DNA of 58,299 bases from positions 1-58,299 of the forward strand of contig OMZY01000015.1 in the NCBI GenBank assembly GCA_900315675.1, given 5' to 3'. The notes under the pieces are model-generated. The model did no database searches. It saw only the letters and a program-made list of their open reading frames with translations, and had not been told where the DNA came from. Below are positions 1 through 8,780 of this stretch, piece after piece. Position 1 is the first letter of the stretch. The number at the start of each line of letters is the position of its first letter. Both the position numbers and the translations under genes were made by a program. This DNA comes from an uncultured Eubacteriales bacterium (GTDB lineage: Bacteria > Bacillota > Clostridia > Christensenellales > Aristaeellaceae).

Positions 1-75
<75 letters not shown>

Positions 76-4338: not shown

Positions 4339-4367
4339 TTGACAGACGTTCTCCGCGGGTATATAAT
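4339..4367 (+). promoter_or_regulatory. Consensus sigma-A promoter of leader 1
   Basis: TTGACA (4339-4344) and TATAAT (4362-4367) with a 17-bp spacer: a perfect match to consensus. Transcription would start near 4374, about 11 nt before the ribosome site of the leader ORF at 4399. A promoter this strong in front of an attenuator fits control at elongation rather than initiation. Confidence 0.92.
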
Positions 4368-4398
4368 CTGCTCAATATTTCCGGAAAGGAGCCTGCCC

Positions 4399-4509
4399 AT
4401 GACCTGCAATATCGTCGGATATTCTGATATGCTGCACCATGCACTGCACCTGGATACCATGCATGGTTTTCATTTCGTATATCCAACTCTGAACTGCAGG
4501 AAAGCGTAG
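4399..4509 (+). CDS. Leader peptide 1 (36 codons) of a putative attenuator
   Basis: A 36-codon frame beginning MTCNIVGYSDMLHHAL and ending NCRKA-stop, with a strong AAAGGAG ribosome site eight bases upstream in a TCCGGAAAGGAGC context. Its core LHLDTMHGFH (residues 16-25) matches MHMNMMHDSH in the leader at 8038, giving [LM]H[LM][DN]xMHxxH; exactly 11 residues follow in both. The sequence around and after the stop (GCAGG.AAG.GTAG, TCCGGA, TATTCCGTT.ATC) is also shared. It is followed by an intrinsic terminator at 4537 and then a gene with its own ribosome site. Seen: position, ribosome site, homology between copies. Inferred: translation or ribosome stalling here controls the downstream terminator. 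The peptide matches no leader I know. Confidence 0.7.
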   Translation: MTCNIVGYSDMLHHALHLDTMHGFHFVYPTLNCRKA

Positions 4510-4536
4510 ACCTCCGGATCATTATTCCGTTCATCC

Positions 4537-4567
4537 GCCGCTTATCTTTGCAGGATAAGCGGCTTTT
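4537..4567 (+). terminator. Attenuator terminator of leader 1
   Basis: Ten-bp stem GCCGCTTATC (4537-4546) / GATAAGCGGC (4554-4563) with loop TTTGCAG, then TTTT. It lies 27 nt after the leader stop codon and 26 nt before the next start. CTTTGC across the 5' arm and loop could instead pair with GCA(GG)AAAG at the end of the leader ORF (a bulged antiterminator). The matching position in leader 2 allows the same pairing. Confidence 0.82.
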
Positions 4568-4592
4568 ATATTATCATAAGGAGGACAAGCCT

Positions 4593-5003
4593 ATGAGGTA
4601 TTACCGTGTACACACCGCGGACAACGCCTACCTGACCCAACAGCCCCGAGGAATCTTCACCGCCGTCTGGAGACTGGTAGACGACGGAATCCTGTCGGAA
4701 GCGGAAACAGCGGATTACTGGAAAAACCGCCGGTATTTTGAGGAGATCCTTCCCGTTCCGCCCTTCTATGAACAGGGAAATCCGGAAGGCGCCATCACCT
4801 GGTTCAAGGATACCGAGGCCGGAAACCGGATATACGAACAGCTGACTTTTTACCGCGATATGGCGGCAAAATACGGACTGGCGCTGTATCTTACGGAATG
4901 CAACGAGCTTCCGGGGGAAGTCATCTATGAAGACGATTACCAGATTGCGGTCAAAAACCAGCGGAACGATCTCCCGCTGCAGACCAGGAAAATACAGGCT
5001 TAA
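4593..5003 (+). CDS. Conserved-looking hypothetical protein (136 aa) under leader 1
   Basis: A soluble, acidic, aromatic-rich protein that begins MRYYRVHTADNAYLTQQPRG and has no signal peptide or membrane segment. I do not recognise the family. Notable stretches are an aromatic/acidic middle (FYEQGNPEGAITWFKD) and ECNELPGEVIYEDDYQIAV near the end. AAGGAGG lies eight bases before ATG 4593; longer upstream frames read into the attenuator hairpin and are unlikely. The next gene starts 12 bp after its stop with its own ribosome site, so the two probably form an operon under the attenuator at 4399-4567. Function unknown. Confidence 0.75.
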   Translation: MRYYRVHTADNAYLTQQPRGIFTAVWRLVDDGILSEAETADYWKNRRYFEEILPVPPFYEQGNPEGAITWFKDTEAGNRIYEQLTFYRDMAAKYGLALYLTECNELPGEVIYEDDYQIAVKNQRNDLPLQTRKIQA

Positions 5004-5015
5004 GGAGAAGCAGCC

Positions 5016-6131
5016 ATGAACAAGCTGATCTGGCCGGACTACAAAAACTGTTCCGCCAACCTCCCCAACTCCATTCTCCGGAAATTCGGCGCGGCTCCCG
5101 CCGGGGATTCGCTCCCCCTGCTGGATCCGTACCTGGAAAAGGATTACCGGAACATTGTCCTCCTGATCCTGGACGGAATGGGGAAAAAAATTCTGGAGCG
5201 GCACCTGCAGCCGGACGGGGCTTTCCGTTCCCATCTGGCGGGCATTTACCAGTCCGTATTCCTTTCCACCACCGTCGCGGCCACCACCTCCCTGCGTTCC
5301 GGACTGCAGCCCTGCGAACACTGCTGGCTCGGCTGGGACTGCTATTATCCCCAGATTGACAAAAACGTGACCGTCTTTTTCAACCGGCTTCAGGGAACAG
5401 AGGAACCGGCGGCGCCTTATAACGTCCCGCAGACCTTCACACCCTATGAAAGCGTCGTGGACAAACTGAACCGGGCCGGAACCAAAGCCTGCATGCTCAC
5501 GCCCTATGACGATCCTGCCCCCGGAAACATCGGGGAATTTTGCCGCCGGATCAAAGCCCTCTGCGACGAACCGGACCGGAAATACATCTTTGCCTACTGG
5601 GACGAGCCGGACGGACTGCTACACAGCAGCGGCTGCGCCTCCGTCCCGGTGCATGAAGCCCTGGTGGAAATGGAGAACACCGTCCGGAAGCTTACCGGCG
5701 AACTGGAGGATACCCTGGTCATCGTCACCGCTGACCACGGGCATATCGACACGGATCACATCCTCTGGCAGGACTATCCCGAGCTGGCCGACTGCCTCAT
5801 CCGCCTGCCCTCCCTGGAACCCCGCGCGCTCAATTTCTTTGTCCGGGAAGAAAAAAAGGCGTTCTTTGAAAAAGAGTTCAACCGCCTGCTCGGAGACTGC
5901 TACCTGCTGCTGCCTATGGAAGAAGTGATTGAAAGGCAGCTGTTCGGCACCGGTAAACCCCATCCGCTGTTCAGAAGCATGCTGGGAGATTACCTGGCGC
6001 TGGCCACAGGCCCGAAGACCCTCTGGTTCAAGAAACCGCCGGAAAAATGGTGGGTTTCCATGCACGCCAGCGTCACGGAGGACGAGGTGCTGGTTCCGCT
6101 GATCCTCTTTGACTGCGGTAAAAAAGCATAA
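5016..6131 (+). CDS. Alkaline phosphatase-fold phosphodiesterase/pyrophosphatase-like protein
   Basis: A 371-aa cytosolic member of the alkaline phosphatase superfamily (nucleotide pyrophosphatase/phosphodiesterase-like). Metal-binding and catalytic positions appear in order: the first metal Asp in VLLILDGMGK, a Ser/Thr nucleophile region FLSTTVAATTSL, WDEPDGLLHSSG with Asp and His, and VTADHGHIDTDH, the typical metal-2 motif. There is no signal peptide, so it probably acts on a cytosolic phosphodiester or phosphomonoester; the substrate is unknown. The ribosome site is AAGGAG. It follows the hypothetical gene by 12 bp and likely shares the leader-controlled transcript. Confidence 0.85.
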   Translation: MNKLIWPDYKNCSANLPNSILRKFGAAPAGDSLPLLDPYLEKDYRNIVLLILDGMGKKILERHLQPDGAFRSHLAGIYQSVFLSTTVAATTSLRSGLQPCEHCWLGWDCYYPQIDKNVTVFFNRLQGTEEPAAPYNVPQTFTPYESVVDKLNRAGTKACMLTPYDDPAPGNIGEFCRRIKALCDEPDRKYIFAYWDEPDGLLHSSGCASVPVHEALVEMENTVRKLTGELEDTLVIVTADHGHIDTDHILWQDYPELADCLIRLPSLEPRALNFFVREEKKAFFEKEFNRLLGDCYLLLPMEEVIERQLFGTGKPHPLFRSMLGDYLALATGPKTLWFKKPPEKWWVSMHASVTEDEVLVPLILFDCGKKA

Positions 6132-6274
6132 ACCGCCTTTCCAGGCTGATAATCGTTTACAGAATTTTTACCTGCGGCTTCTTTTCCCCGGCGTTCCGCT
6201 CTGATATACTCTTTGACAAACGTCATGCGTTTTCTCCGCTTTGCGGAAAATGTCCTTAAAGGAAACCATTGCTT
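6132..6274 (+). promoter_or_regulatory. Intergenic region with TATACT box and hairpin before the nucleoside phosphorylase gene
   Basis: TATACT at 6205-6210 is a plausible -10, without a convincing -35 17 bp upstream. A short hairpin TTTTCtCCGC TTT GCGGaAAA follows at 6230-6250, with TTGACA at 6214-6219 before it. The hairpin lies in the expected 5' leader, but I see no known riboswitch. Confidence 0.35.
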
Positions 6275-7069
6275 ATGAAAGATAAAATGATTCGTATTCT
6301 GGAACAGATCCACCGCTACAATTCCGACCGGATGACAACCCACGCCTTCGGCCTGGATCCGGATACGGAATATGACGCGCTGGTCGTCGCGCCCAGCTAT
6401 ACCCCGTACAAACTGAAAATGGATGAATCCTGCAAAGTCACCACCCTGAAGGAAGGTGCCTATATCGCCGGATACCTGGTGGAAAAGGACGGGCTGAAAA
6501 TCGCCTGGATCAAAATTGCGTCCTCGGATTCCAACCTGATTGATCATATCGCGATCTGCGCGGAGCTGAAATTCCGGAAAATGATCTTCATCGGCGCGGT
6601 CGGCGCGCTGAAACCCGGTTATGTTCCGGGAGACATCTGCACTCCGTCCTGTTCCGTCGCCGGCGGATTCGCCCATACCTATCTGAAGGAATCCATCCGG
6701 GACTATGTCCCTTTCGAGCGGATTGAACCGGCAGACATCCGCTTTGTCGACCGCGTGATCGAAGCCGGCCGGGCAAAAGGGTATGAGATCCGGAAAGCCT
6801 CTGTTTTCTGTACCCCTTCCATTGCGCTGGAATACTCCCACCTGGAGGAAATCAAAGCCTTTGATACGGACCTGATCGAGATGGAAACCGCCTCCTTTTA
6901 CCTGATGGCTGACCTGCTGGAGGTGGACAGCGCGGCGCTTCTGGTGGTTTCGGACAACTCCGCCACCGGTTCAGCCCTGGTTGGACGGTCCGAAGAAGAT
7001 AAAATCAGGTATGAGAAGGGTTTCCGTGAAATCCTTCCGGATATGATTCTCACCACCGCGAAAATGTAG
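6275..7069 (+). CDS. Nucleoside phosphorylase (PNP/UDP family)
   Basis: A 264-aa purine/uridine phosphorylase superfamily protein that would split a nucleoside with phosphate into base and ribose 1-phosphate. Family features: the phosphate loop and beta-sheet core FIGAVGALKPGYVPGDI, a GGFAHTY segment, and the hallmark DLIEMETASFY, where Met-Glu binds the ribose. SDN in VVSDNSATGS sits where PNP family members bind the purine base or catalyse. Base specificity cannot be assigned. Start: ATG 6275 has AAAGGA 11 bases upstream; an in-frame TTG at 6269 has closer spacing and would add two residues. The methyltransferase gene follows after 17 bp. Confidence 0.85.
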   Translation: MKDKMIRILEQIHRYNSDRMTTHAFGLDPDTEYDALVVAPSYTPYKLKMDESCKVTTLKEGAYIAGYLVEKDGLKIAWIKIASSDSNLIDHIAICAELKFRKMIFIGAVGALKPGYVPGDICTPSCSVAGGFAHTYLKESIRDYVPFERIEPADIRFVDRVIEAGRAKGYEIRKASVFCTPSIALEYSHLEEIKAFDTDLIEMETASFYLMADLLEVDSAALLVVSDNSATGSALVGRSEEDKIRYEKGFREILPDMILTTAKM

Positions 7070-7086
7070 GAAAGGTGTGACCCCGC

Positions 7087-7968
7087 ATGTATCAGGAGAT
7101 CCTGCCCCTGCTTTCCTGCCCCTGCTGTAAAAAGAGTTTTTCCCTCTTTCCCGCTGAAACTGAAAATGAAGAGATTACCGAAGGTTATATTGAATGTGAA
7201 GAAGGCCACCGGTATCCCGTCCGGAAAGGCGTGCTGCATATGGGCAGCGAAGAACAGGCAGACAGCAACACCTGGAGCGATTATTACCAGGACATGAGCT
7301 ATGAGGAACTGGACAAAGCCCTGGATGAGCGGAAAACAGAAAACCAGCGGAAAATCCAGGCTAAATTCCTGGAGGACGTTACTGCCGAAACCGGCAGGCT
7401 GAAACAGGGTTTCCTGCTGGACATTGCCTCCGGCCGGGGCTTGCTGCTCTCGAAGCTGATCGAAACGGCCGGTCCGGACGTGCATATTATTTCCTCCGAC
7501 CTGAGTTTCACCGTGCTGATGTATGACCGGCTGAAGTTCGCGGAAAAAGCCCGGAATCTGAAGGTCAGCTATGTAGCCTGCGATGCCACAAATCTTCCGT
7601 TTAAACCCGGCAGTGTGGACATGGTCAGCACATTTGTCGGCTATATGAACATGGGTTCTCTGTTTGAAGCCGGCGTCGCGGAATCCGCGCGCGTGCTGAA
7701 AAAGGGCGCTCCCCTGATTCACGCCAGCTCATATCTGGATCCGGAAAGTGCCGGATACCGTGAAGTGGAGGAAATCCTGAAATCCATGAACGCACAGGAC
7801 ACCCTGAAAAACCTGGTGCGGCAGGATGTGCTGGCCACTCACAGCCGGTATTTCTCAAAGGTTTCGGATACGGTCAGCTATGAAGGCATCGCCGAAGGTG
7901 AGGAAGCGGACCTGCTTCCGCGCCGGGGATCCTGGTTTGCCAATGTTGTGATCCGAGCGGAAAAATAA
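7087..7968 (+). CDS. Class I SAM-dependent methyltransferase with N-terminal zinc ribbon
   Basis: A 293-aa cytosolic methyltransferase. The N-terminus has CPCC near residue 11 and a second set ECEEGHRYPV, resembling the Trm112/RlmA-type zinc ribbon. The Rossmann core has motif I DIASGRGLLLSKL, motif II SSDLSFTVL, and a motif IV-like ACDATNLPFKPGSVDMVS. The pairing resembles RlmA (23S rRNA guanine methyltransferase), but the substrate is not proven and small-molecule or quinone methylation is possible. It starts 17 bp after the phosphorylase and probably shares its transcript. The second attenuator leader lies just downstream and may be fed by read-through from here. Confidence 0.82.
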   Translation: MYQEILPLLSCPCCKKSFSLFPAETENEEITEGYIECEEGHRYPVRKGVLHMGSEEQADSNTWSDYYQDMSYEELDKALDERKTENQRKIQAKFLEDVTAETGRLKQGFLLDIASGRGLLLSKLIETAGPDVHIISSDLSFTVLMYDRLKFAEKARNLKVSYVACDATNLPFKPGSVDMVSTFVGYMNMGSLFEAGVAESARVLKKGAPLIHASSYLDPESAGYREVEEILKSMNAQDTLKNLVRQDVLATHSRYFSKVSDTVSYEGIAEGEEADLLPRRGSWFANVVIRAEK

Positions 7969-7982
7969 AACCCATCGCAGGA

Positions 7983-8009
7983 ACAGATTTCCCCCGGTTG
8001 GAAATCTGT
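7983..8009 (+). other. Ten-bp hairpin upstream of leader 2
   Basis: ACAGATTTCC (7983-7992) and GGAAATCTGT (8000-8009) form a perfect stem with a 7-nt loop. There is no T-run, so it is not a standard terminator. It could stabilise or process the mRNA between the methyltransferase and the leader. No equivalent is present before leader 1, where the promoter takes this place. Confidence 0.55.
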
Positions 8010-8037
8010 CTGATCCTGTCCGGAAAGGAGCTTTCCC

Positions 8038-8145
8038 GTGAGCCGCCCCGCAGTCAGGCATTCATCCATGGAGCGTATCATGCATATGAACATGATGCAT
8101 GACAGTCATGACGCATGCCTGTATGCAGCCCGCAGGGAAGAGTAG
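8038..8145 (+). CDS. Leader peptide 2 (35 codons) of a putative attenuator
   Basis: A GTG-started frame of 35 codons behind AAAGGAG, in the same TCCGGAAAGGAGC context as the leader at 4399. The peptide begins VSRPAVRHSSMERI and ends AARREE-stop. Its core MHMNMMHDSH (residues 15-24) aligns with LHLDTMHGFH of leader 1 and is followed by exactly 11 residues, as there. Five of its residues are Met after the start and five are His. The stop region (GCAGG.AAG.GTAG, TCCGGA, TATTCCGTT.ATC) is shared with leader 1. No clear promoter is seen between here and the methyltransferase gene. Translation is inferred from the ribosome site and the conserved peptide pattern. Confidence 0.7.
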   Translation: MSRPAVRHSSMERIMHMNMMHDSHDACLYAARREE

Positions 8146-8174
8146 GTTCCGGAACCCCGGTATTCCGTTGATCA

Positions 8175-8208
8175 GAATCGCTCCTCTTTGCAGGGGGCGG
8201 TTCTTTTT
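8175..8208 (+). terminator. Attenuator terminator of leader 2
   Basis: An 11-bp stem with G-U pairs (8175-8185 / 8193-8203), loop CTTTGCA, then TTTTT. It lies 29 nt after the leader stop. The apex C-TTTGCA-G is identical to leader 1 although the stem sequence differs, so structure and loop are conserved. GCA(GGG)AAGAG at the leader's 3' end is complementary to CTCTTTGC in the 5' arm and loop, apart from a 3-nt bulge. Confidence 0.82.
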
Positions 8209-8231
8209 ATATCTGAAGGAGGGTTATGCAT

Positions 8232-8780
8232 ATGGATCTGGTTATCCTGATCGGCAGCGGCGCTGTCGGCAAAATGACGGTTGGACAGGAACTGATGAAA
8301 ATCACGGATTTCAGGCTGTTTCATAATCACATGATGATAGAACCCGTGCTGGAGATCTTCGGGGACTATACAGGACCCACAGTCGACCGGCTCCGGAATG
8401 TGATTTTTGAGGAGTTTCTGAAAACCAATCACCGGGGAATGATTTTTACCTACATGTGGGCCTTTGATATGCAGGAAGACTGGGATTATATCCGTTCAGT
8501 GGCAGAACGCTTCGAATTTACCGGCGGAAATGTGTATTATGTGGAATTAGTTGCCGATCGTGCAGTCCGGCTGGAACGGAATAAAACGGAAAACCGGCTG
8601 CGGAACAAAGCGTCCAAGCGGGACCTTGCCGCGTCAGAGCAGCGTCTGCTGCGGGAAGACCGGTACCGCCTTGTCAGCCGCGAGGGAGAGCTGCCCTTTA
8701 AAAACTATATGCGGATTGACAACACCAACCTGACGCCGGAGGAAACGGCCGGGATGATCCGGGACAGATTTTCCCTGTAA
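8232..8780 (+). CDS. P-loop nucleotide kinase-like protein (shikimate kinase/AAA-type)
   Basis: A 182-aa single-domain P-loop protein. Walker A is GSGAVGKMTVGQEL near residue 8, with Met replacing the usual Ser/Thr position (GxxxxGKM-T). The lid-like region NRLRNKASKRDL contains Arg/Lys residues expected to contact phosphates. It resembles small kinases of the shikimate kinase/adenylate kinase fold often annotated only as 'AAA family ATPase'; the substrate is unknown. ATG 8232 is preferred because AAGGAGGG lies eight bases upstream; ATG 8226 would be only two bases away. The gene sits behind the leader-peptide attenuator at 8038-8208, so it is probably conditionally expressed. Confidence 0.78.
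   Translation: MDLVILIGSGAVGKMTVGQELMKITDFRLFHNHMMIEPVLEIFGDYTGPTVDRLRNVIFEEFLKTNHRGMIFTYMWAFDMQEDWDYIRSVAERFEFTGGNVYYVELVADRAVRLERNKTENRLRNKASKRDLAASEQRLLREDRYRLVSREGELPFKNYMRIDNTNLTPEETAGMIRDRFSL

Follow-up and report, generated by a model that had tools for sequence, protein, structure and literature searches.

The window, by which we mean the whole 58,299-nucleotide stretch of DNA analyzed here, carries on its forward strand two leaders of similar layout, in which a short upstream open reading frame (uORF) is followed by a predicted intrinsic terminator and then by a gene. We refer to them as copy 1 and copy 2; their coordinates, given in a first-pass annotation made from the sequence alone, proved right. 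At the contig edge the window also holds the start of a 16S rRNA gene (1-74, reverse strand), found by the Rfam scan.

Copy 1 opens with a promoter at 4339..4367 (TTGACA at 4339-4344, a 17-nt spacer, TATAAT at 4362-4367), which agrees with the consensus at 12/12 bases and bears out its earlier description as a perfect sigma-A promoter. A Shine-Dalgarno sequence, AAAGGAG (4385..4391), precedes a uORF of 36 codons plus TAG at 4399..4509 (MTCNIVGYSDMLHHALHLDTMHGFHFVYPTLNCRKA). Two short strands within 4392..4408, CCTGC at 4392-4396 before the start codon and CCTGCA at 4403-4408 in codons 2-4, can pair with GCAGG/TGCAGG at 4495-4500 near the end of the uORF; this start-end pairing is the predicted anti-antiterminator (AAT). 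The uORF contains a hairpin, P1, at 4436..4467 (ACCATGCA / TGCATGGT), recognized from the sequence and from covariation in the family. The strand at 4494..4507, at the end of the uORF, is both the AAT target and the 5' arm of a predicted antiterminator (AT). The terminator (T) follows 27 nt after the uORF at 4537..4567; its helix covaries, and its 5' arm and loop provide the 3' partner of AT. The gene predicted to be attenuated (4593..5003, ATG at 4593) has its own ribosome site and matches nothing in Pfam or NCBIfam, and the same gene is found behind the leader in L102, L108 and L114, which are copy-1-type leaders. The next gene (5016..6131, forward strand) belongs to the type I phosphodiesterase/nucleotide pyrophosphatase family; genes of the same Pfam family stand directly behind a putative attenuator in a cluster formed by L116, L139 and L156.

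In copy 2 the Shine-Dalgarno sequence AAAGGAG (8024..8030) is followed by the AAT strand at 8031..8038 (CTTTCCCG) and by a uORF of 35 codons at 8038..8145, which starts with GTG at 8038 and ends in RREE-TAG. Its P1 hairpin lies at 8078..8102 (TCATGCAT / ATGCATGA) and is the source of the peptide stretch MHMNMMH, the ORF-end switch strand is at 8131..8142 (CGCAGGGAAGAG), and the terminator at 8176..8208 is weaker, the equilibrium fold favoring the antiterminator. The putatively attenuated gene 2 (8226..8780, ATG at 8226) encodes a protein that is P-loop kinase-like by eye, with no match in Pfam or NCBIfam. We found no convincing promoter of its own upstream of copy 2, where the top score of 9/12 is equalled in 11% of shuffled upstream sequences. 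Since, in addition, the uORF starts 69 nt past the end of a methyltransferase gene (7087-7968), transcription of copy 2 may be supplied by the upstream operon.

The region from 5016 to 8780 is a run of enzyme genes, encoding the phosphodiesterase, a nucleoside phosphorylase, the methyltransferase, which has a weak, sub-threshold Trm112p-like N-terminus, and the kinase-like protein. Members of the phosphodiesterase and phosphorylase Pfam families and a kinase 62% identical to that of copy 2 are each led by a putative attenuator elsewhere (L116, L109 and L146). Homologues of the kinase-like protein occur in 28 plasmid records from Priestia, Planococcus, Rossellomorea, Streptomyces, Pseudomonas and Legionella (28-52% identity in the 10 matches listed), annotated as 'AAA family ATPase' or 'shikimate kinase'; a comparison by sequence with solved structures gave no convincing homology.

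Leaders of the same kind in related genomes

A blastn search with copy 1 covered its own genome and 60 relatives, 61 genomes in all, of which 24 had matches. In three genomes besides the window's own, near full-length matches precede the same gene; the remaining matches mostly cover just the terminator, and a few (L035, L038, L039, L040) resemble chance hits. The layout of copy 1 recurs before unrelated genes at the matched loci. The start context CCGGAAAGGA(G), earlier counted among the traits of the leaders, also precedes ordinary genes (L039, L040, L009) and does not set them apart.

We built a covariance model, R1, from 22 copies and obtained 85 matches in 26 of the 45 genomes of the window's genus. 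A second model, R2, built from 80 copies, gave 97 matches in 27 of the 45 genomes, including nine in the window's own genome, all nine with a uORF. Within the window R2 recovers copies 1 and 2 at E-values of 3.7e-14 and 1.3e-7, values that are not independent because both copies were in the training sets of R1 and R2; the independent support for the two copies is the family in the relatives. Taken together, the E-values and the family confirm that the words shared by the two leaders are not a chance resemblance. Apart from these two, R2 matched the window only antisense to the terminator of copy 1 (E 0.0036). Among its weakest matches elsewhere a few are doubtful, such as L209 (E 0.005), which is without a uORF.

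The counts at higher ranks are lower bounds, because the stricter filters of larger searches lose weak matches: at the order level R1 matched 3 of 248 genomes, all of the window's genus; at the family level R2, with E up to 0.01, matched 14 of 200, nine in the genus and five outside it across four genera (one of the five, L195, apparently spurious); and at the class level 4 of 391 genomes matched, namely the window's own and three weak ones from two other families. The exact terminator pattern was found in 19 stretches of an 84,980-species genome collection, all from uncultured Clostridia, Clostridiales or Eubacteriales bins. Where the sample site is named it is ruminant gut, and the window's genus probably consists of ruminant-gut Clostridia. 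The exact terminator pattern had no match in viral contigs, and copy 1 had none in plasmids. At the gathering score, Rfam recognized only the 16S rRNA fragment in the window and no leader, in keeping with the earlier statement that no known leader or riboswitch family has these features. With E-values up to 1, seven family loci gave three Rfam hits far below the gathering scores and none on the leaders' own strand: two fall outside the leader, and the third runs antisense to that of L144.

For the comparisons below, 80 of the 85 R1 matches were fetched; five weaker or partial ones were left out, of which two (L197 and L210) were retrieved at a later stage. Three partial or degenerate copies (L136, L141, L142) were dropped before the duplex test, leaving 77 rows, 49 of them non-redundant and 47 of these with a detected uORF. 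From 20 second-round loci we used 17, leaving out L195 and L209, which have no uORF and look spurious, and L205, a near copy of L204. A promoter score of at least 10/12 was found for 44 of the 47 non-redundant members vs 1.8% of shuffled upstream sequences. Both leaders of the window are real and are members of a large dispersed family, and the proposal of homologous leader attenuators before unrelated genes extends to 97 matches and 20 gene clusters.

The uORF is maintained and its peptide hardly

A uORF of 27-39 codons was detected automatically in 75 of the 80 fetched copies, with ATG (68) or GTG (7) as the start and TAG (42), TAA (31) or TGA (2) as the stop. Frame 0 is open in all 47 non-redundant uORFs, as the search by its construction requires, and the other two frames are open in 1 and 13 of them; the length of the spacer from stop codon to terminator varies freely modulo 3 (19, 18, 10). 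Loss of the ORF with the hairpin kept, named beforehand as a result that would speak against the family, occurs in a few copies only: by eye the uORF is lost and the terminator kept in L041 (= L141) and L037, and in L043 (= L116) the end of the ORF is frameshifted.

The codon-level conservation of the peptide that the first-pass annotation had proposed to look for gave way to near-neutral evolution. Over the whole uORF the changed codons are synonymous in 78 cases and non-synonymous in 226, against 78 and 257 expected without selection when these substitutions are placed randomly in a simulation. The deficit lies mainly in the N-terminal 40% (79 non-synonymous changes vs 101.6 expected), and codon-level selection on the peptide was not found to be strong but only mild, and confined to that part. 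The C-terminal 30% has no such deficit (73 vs 75) and somewhat fewer synonymous changes than expected (16 vs 22), which is what RNA pairing would give. From the retention of the frame and the substitution counts it therefore follows that translation and the RNA are kept, and the peptide hardly.

The residues of 64 distinct peptides, with the first residue excluded, are spread broadly (V 11%, R 10%, A 9%, H 5%, M 4%). Recurring stretches are the ends REE, REA and RPE and, in one subfamily, ANTxxHVR, and they lie in parts of the RNA that form helices supported by covariation or by partner fit. The MHxxH core, previously taken for a stalling motif, was rejected as a conserved peptide motif, being the palindromic ATGCAT arm of P1 and absent in relatives (e.g. 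LHHTDHADYLYDDFF in L102 and RMDYTHDSDRVYS in L139). The ATGCAT segment is the self-complementary arm of a covarying hairpin within the ORF.

Alternative pairings of the leader RNA

We aligned 58 copies (53 of them distinct) in an alignment, A4, fitted to P1 and the terminator and not to the antiterminator; it is without L136, L141, L142 and the 19 rows of the RPE-type subfamily described below, in which the AT pairs differ or are incomplete. In P1 and T together 92.0% of the cells are paired (81.9% in P1, 97.9% in the terminator), and 76 cells carry double changes vs 22.4 in shuffles, so that the covarying stems that had been looked for are present. P1 probably serves to bring the two ends of the uORF together.

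The AT/AAT switch had been missed at first reading. In AT, which pairs the ORF end with the 5' arm and loop of T, 87.0% of the cells are paired and 32 show double changes vs 13.1 in shuffles, although the number of AT pairs with double changes (5) is not above the shuffles, 149 of 500 being as high. Among the 49 non-redundant members the AT duplex has an energy of -13.3 kcal/mol with the cognate strand vs -10.65 with swapped strands (0 of 5,000 permutations as low) and a mean of -8.5 kcal/mol with shuffled strands; these values are to be read with the facts that AT shares letters with the 5' arm of T and that shuffles and permutations ignore relatedness. The partner fit was found again in 17 leaders outside the earlier test, a set that includes mutual near relatives (0 of 10,000 permutations).

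A second fitting partner of the ORF-end strand is the short stretch that separates the Shine-Dalgarno sequence from the start codon. In copy 1 these are CCUGC with GCAGG; elsewhere the corresponding pairs are GCUCUUCUC with GAGAAGAGU (L080), GCGCUUCUU with GAGAAGCGU (L091), CGCUUCUCUG with CAGAGAAGCG (L100), CUCUCCUC with GAGGAGAG (L130) and GGUUCUUCG with CGAAGAACC (L150 and L151). Over 47 members the mean energy of the AAT duplex is -12.65 for cognate vs -9.77 for swapped strands (sd 0.37; 0 of 10,000 permutations), and weakens to -7.5 with a shuffled spacer and to -5.9 against the middle of the ORF; in the 17 additional leaders 34 of 10,000 permutations reached the cognate value. The ORF-end strand thus has two mutually exclusive partners, the 5' arm and loop of T (AT) or the start-side strand (AAT).

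In the RPE-type subfamily (19 copies between L110 and L155) the uORF often ends in SDHPKSRPE and the predicted AT is longer and different, with the SDHPKSRPE codons pairing with the strand before the terminator. In many copies of this subfamily the apical loop of a predicted hairpin contains the stop codon. At the level of sequence, the parts of the leader (uORF, P1, T, AT and AAT) are established by comparison, covariation or partner fit.

Genes downstream of the leaders

A downstream ORF was called for 78 of the 80 copies (none for L136 and L142), and these ORFs fall into 20 sequence clusters of about 13 kinds. Pfam was scanned with representatives of 19 of the 20 clusters, and the single GNAT protein of L098 was placed by similarity. 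Methyltransferases (34, in five clusters) and GNAT acetyltransferases (21, in four clusters) are the most frequent, followed by the copy-1 protein (4), the phosphodiesterase (3), the copy-2 kinase-like protein (3) and a short doubtful ORF (3); RsgA, a 2'-5' RNA ligase family protein and a secreted esterase-like protein (no Pfam match; by eye) occur twice each, and a HAD hydrolase, an alpha/beta hydrolase, a nucleoside phosphorylase and an APH-family phosphotransferase once each. Several of the called ORFs start more than 100 nt past the terminator and may not be its direct target (e.g. L098, 392 nt; L126, 221; L140, 216; L103, 194; L151, 174). The gene set resembles drug- or ribosome-modifying enzymes; none of the seven downstream proteins scanned against NCBIfam reached the cut-off of a resistance model.

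When leaders were grouped by single linkage at 80% similarity or more, a single leader cluster preceded as many as five gene clusters, L098 among them, and the leaders of nine gene clusters came from more than one such group. That one leader cluster serves several gene clusters, and vice versa, suggests a reshuffling of leaders and genes. By eye, the leaders of L139 and L156 resemble copy 2; the gene behind them encodes the phosphodiesterase, whose counterpart in the window comes after copy 1.

Weak matches in another family of the class

Weak model matches in another family of the class lie, by eye, before methyltransferases, a GNAT protein, phosphodiesterases and an ABC transporter. Of nine leaders from outside the window's family, seven, all from genus g207 (L211, L212, L214 and L220-L223), were tested, and L213 and L224, the latter without a plausible uORF, were left out. 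The seven are uORF-plus-terminator leaders with similar terminator stems, and by eye the genes behind them are related to the methyltransferase, phosphodiesterase and GNAT genes found behind the other leaders, with an ABC transporter in addition. Permutation of AT and AAT among them gave no support for either and leaves the extension of the switch to this family unsupported. The end of L211, IREE-TAA, fits the start-end pairing, and the ends of the other g207 leaders do not. In G694 the methyltransferase is 78% identical, an identity that suggests horizontal transfer.

Folding of the leaders and proposed mechanism

We modelled 47 transcripts cut before the 3' arm of T. The mean occupancy of AT was 0.34 when the RNA was free; masking that mimics a ribosome gave 0.66 at the start of the uORF, 0.33 in its middle and 0.09 at its stop. 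The corresponding values are 0.22, 0.75, 0.25 and 0.00 for copy 1 and 0.24, 0.87, 0.24 and 0.00 for copy 2. Masking of the start raised AT by more than 0.2 in 26 members and lowered it by as much in none, leaving 21 without a rise above 0.2. When only the spacer of about 10 nt before the start codon was shuffled, the occupancy of AT in the free RNA reached 0.54; it rose by more than 0.1 in 27 of the 47 members and dropped in 2 (p 4e-7).

Equilibrium folding of the full-length RNA of the 47 members showed no switch in most copies. The mean probability of T was 0.91, 0.85, 0.93 and 0.96 in the free, start-masked, middle-masked and stop-masked states, and masking of the start lowered it by more than 0.1 in seven members and raised it in four. 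Copy 2, in which T is weak (0.01 when free), and L115 are exceptions to its dominance. Because T mostly wins at equilibrium in full-length RNA, the decision between AT and T must, in this model, be kinetic.

On the comparative and modelling results we consider it probable that each copy is a ribosome-mediated transcription attenuator, on when a ribosome is arrested near the start of the uORF, as in bmrB and vmlR; the ribosome-controlled read-through suggested at first reading is supported as the likely mechanism. We infer termination, the order of events and the inducing signal as follows. With no ribosome at the start, AAT would hold the ORF end and T would stop transcription. A ribosome arrested at or near the start of the uORF would mask the AAT strand, so that AT could form before the 3' arm of T is made and the gene would be transcribed, while a ribosome finishing normally would cover the ORF end and T would form again. 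The predicted rule is that a ribosome at the uORF start means on, and that no ribosome, or one further along or at the stop, means off. Translation inhibitors or slow initiation would be the likely signal, and drugs that arrest ribosomes at start codons the natural inducers.

The dispersed copies could then form a regulon of modification and detoxification enzymes that operates without a regulatory protein. We put forward only tentatively the wider proposal of a protein-free regulon, in which a genus-wide, mobile-like module that folds the start of its uORF onto the end would have been copied to 20 gene clusters (about 13 kinds), with repeated reshuffling of leaders and genes. A single cellular state, the arrest of ribosomes at start codons, would then turn on all these modification enzymes together.

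Alternative explanations and known attenuators

The maintained uORF, its recurring ends REE, REA and RPE, the ANTxxHVR stretch of one subfamily and the mild purifying selection on the N-terminal 40% would also be expected if a nascent peptide carrying MHxxH, ANTxxHVR or an REE end stalled the ribosome together with a ligand or drug. However, the changed codons of the whole uORF lie close to the unselected expectation, the recurrences coincide with covarying or partner-fitting helices, and MHxxH is absent in relatives, so we regard peptide arrest as unlikely. Stalling at starved codons, as in the trp and his attenuators, would share the geometry of T and AT, and Met and His are frequent in the peptides of copies 1 and 2; yet the composition over the 64 peptides is broad, no run of codons for a single amino acid was seen by eye, and the scanned downstream genes are not those of amino-acid biosynthesis. 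Control by amino-acid supply was rejected on the peptide composition and is in our view highly improbable.

It is also conceivable that the start-end pairing mainly limits translation of the uORF or decay of the RNA and that the terminator is constitutive, since a strand between the Shine-Dalgarno sequence and the start codon should hide the uORF start and T mostly dominates at equilibrium. But the ORF-end letters also fit the terminator loop, a fit that is superfluous for the terminator stem, and this makes the explanation distinctly improbable. The least credible alternative is a ligand-binding riboswitch in which the ORF is incidental. Conserved hairpins and the position of several copies before metabolic-looking genes would agree with it, but the leaders searched gave no Rfam match at the gathering score, P1 loops and the spacers are variable with no conserved unpaired pocket by eye, and a single frame stays open although the spacer lengths are unconstrained modulo 3. 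The ligand control considered earlier, by a small-molecule riboswitch, is not needed here.

The preferred reading, attenuation by a ribosome arrested at the uORF start, has parallels in described systems. The bmrB leader of bmrCD in Bacillus subtilis is, as described in PMC4191407, a regulatory uORF of 53 codons at a single locus before an ABC transporter, which is induced by chloramphenicol, lincomycin or erythromycin and in which loss of the start lowers read-through. According to that description the terminator lies inside the uORF, whereas in the present family T is downstream of the stop codon, the AAT strand abuts the start codon, and up to nine copies per genome stand before many kinds of gene. 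In the vmlR leader of B. subtilis (as presented in PMC9226507) a ribosome stalled on the uORF prevents AAT so that AT forms, and arrest at initiation counts, which is the start-arrest logic proposed here; that leader differs, in the same account, by a 3-codon uORF inside the AAT hairpin, extra pause and Shine-Dalgarno-sequestering hairpins and a single ABC-F gene, with no sequence relation shown. The rli80/hflXr leader of Listeria monocytogenes attenuates transcription through alternative AAT, AT and T folds with a small ORF, like the family, but PMC6310831 describes a 14-aa ORF with an RLR macrolide motif at a single locus. In Escherichia coli, one uORF, toiL of topAI, senses several classes of ribosome inhibitors, and a heading of that paper states that tetracycline stalls ribosomes at start codons across the transcriptome (PMC12121999); toiL acts on translation and Rho termination, and, unlike what we propose for the family, the abstract names no intrinsic terminator switch.

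From bmrB, vmlR and rli80-hflXr, the three-state T/AT/AAT logic with a uORF is already known. What is distinct here is the position of the AAT strand at the start codon, the dispersed multi-copy family and the breadth of the genes. In a search of the literature on leader attenuators in Clostridia, the gut and the rumen and on uORF anti-antiterminators, with most subscription journals outside its scope, none of the titles and abstracts listed described the family.

Implications

The leader attenuators of this type that we compared from the literature are each described at a single locus. Nearly 100 matches in one rumen genus serve as replicates provided by nature: the RNA pairing, the coding of the leader and the gene behind it each vary independently of the others, which makes the mechanism testable by comparison. 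The module would be a compact sensor of translation status. If the true signal is translation arrest, the downstream genes would be candidates for intrinsic resistance or ribosome-rescue functions in anaerobes of the livestock gut.
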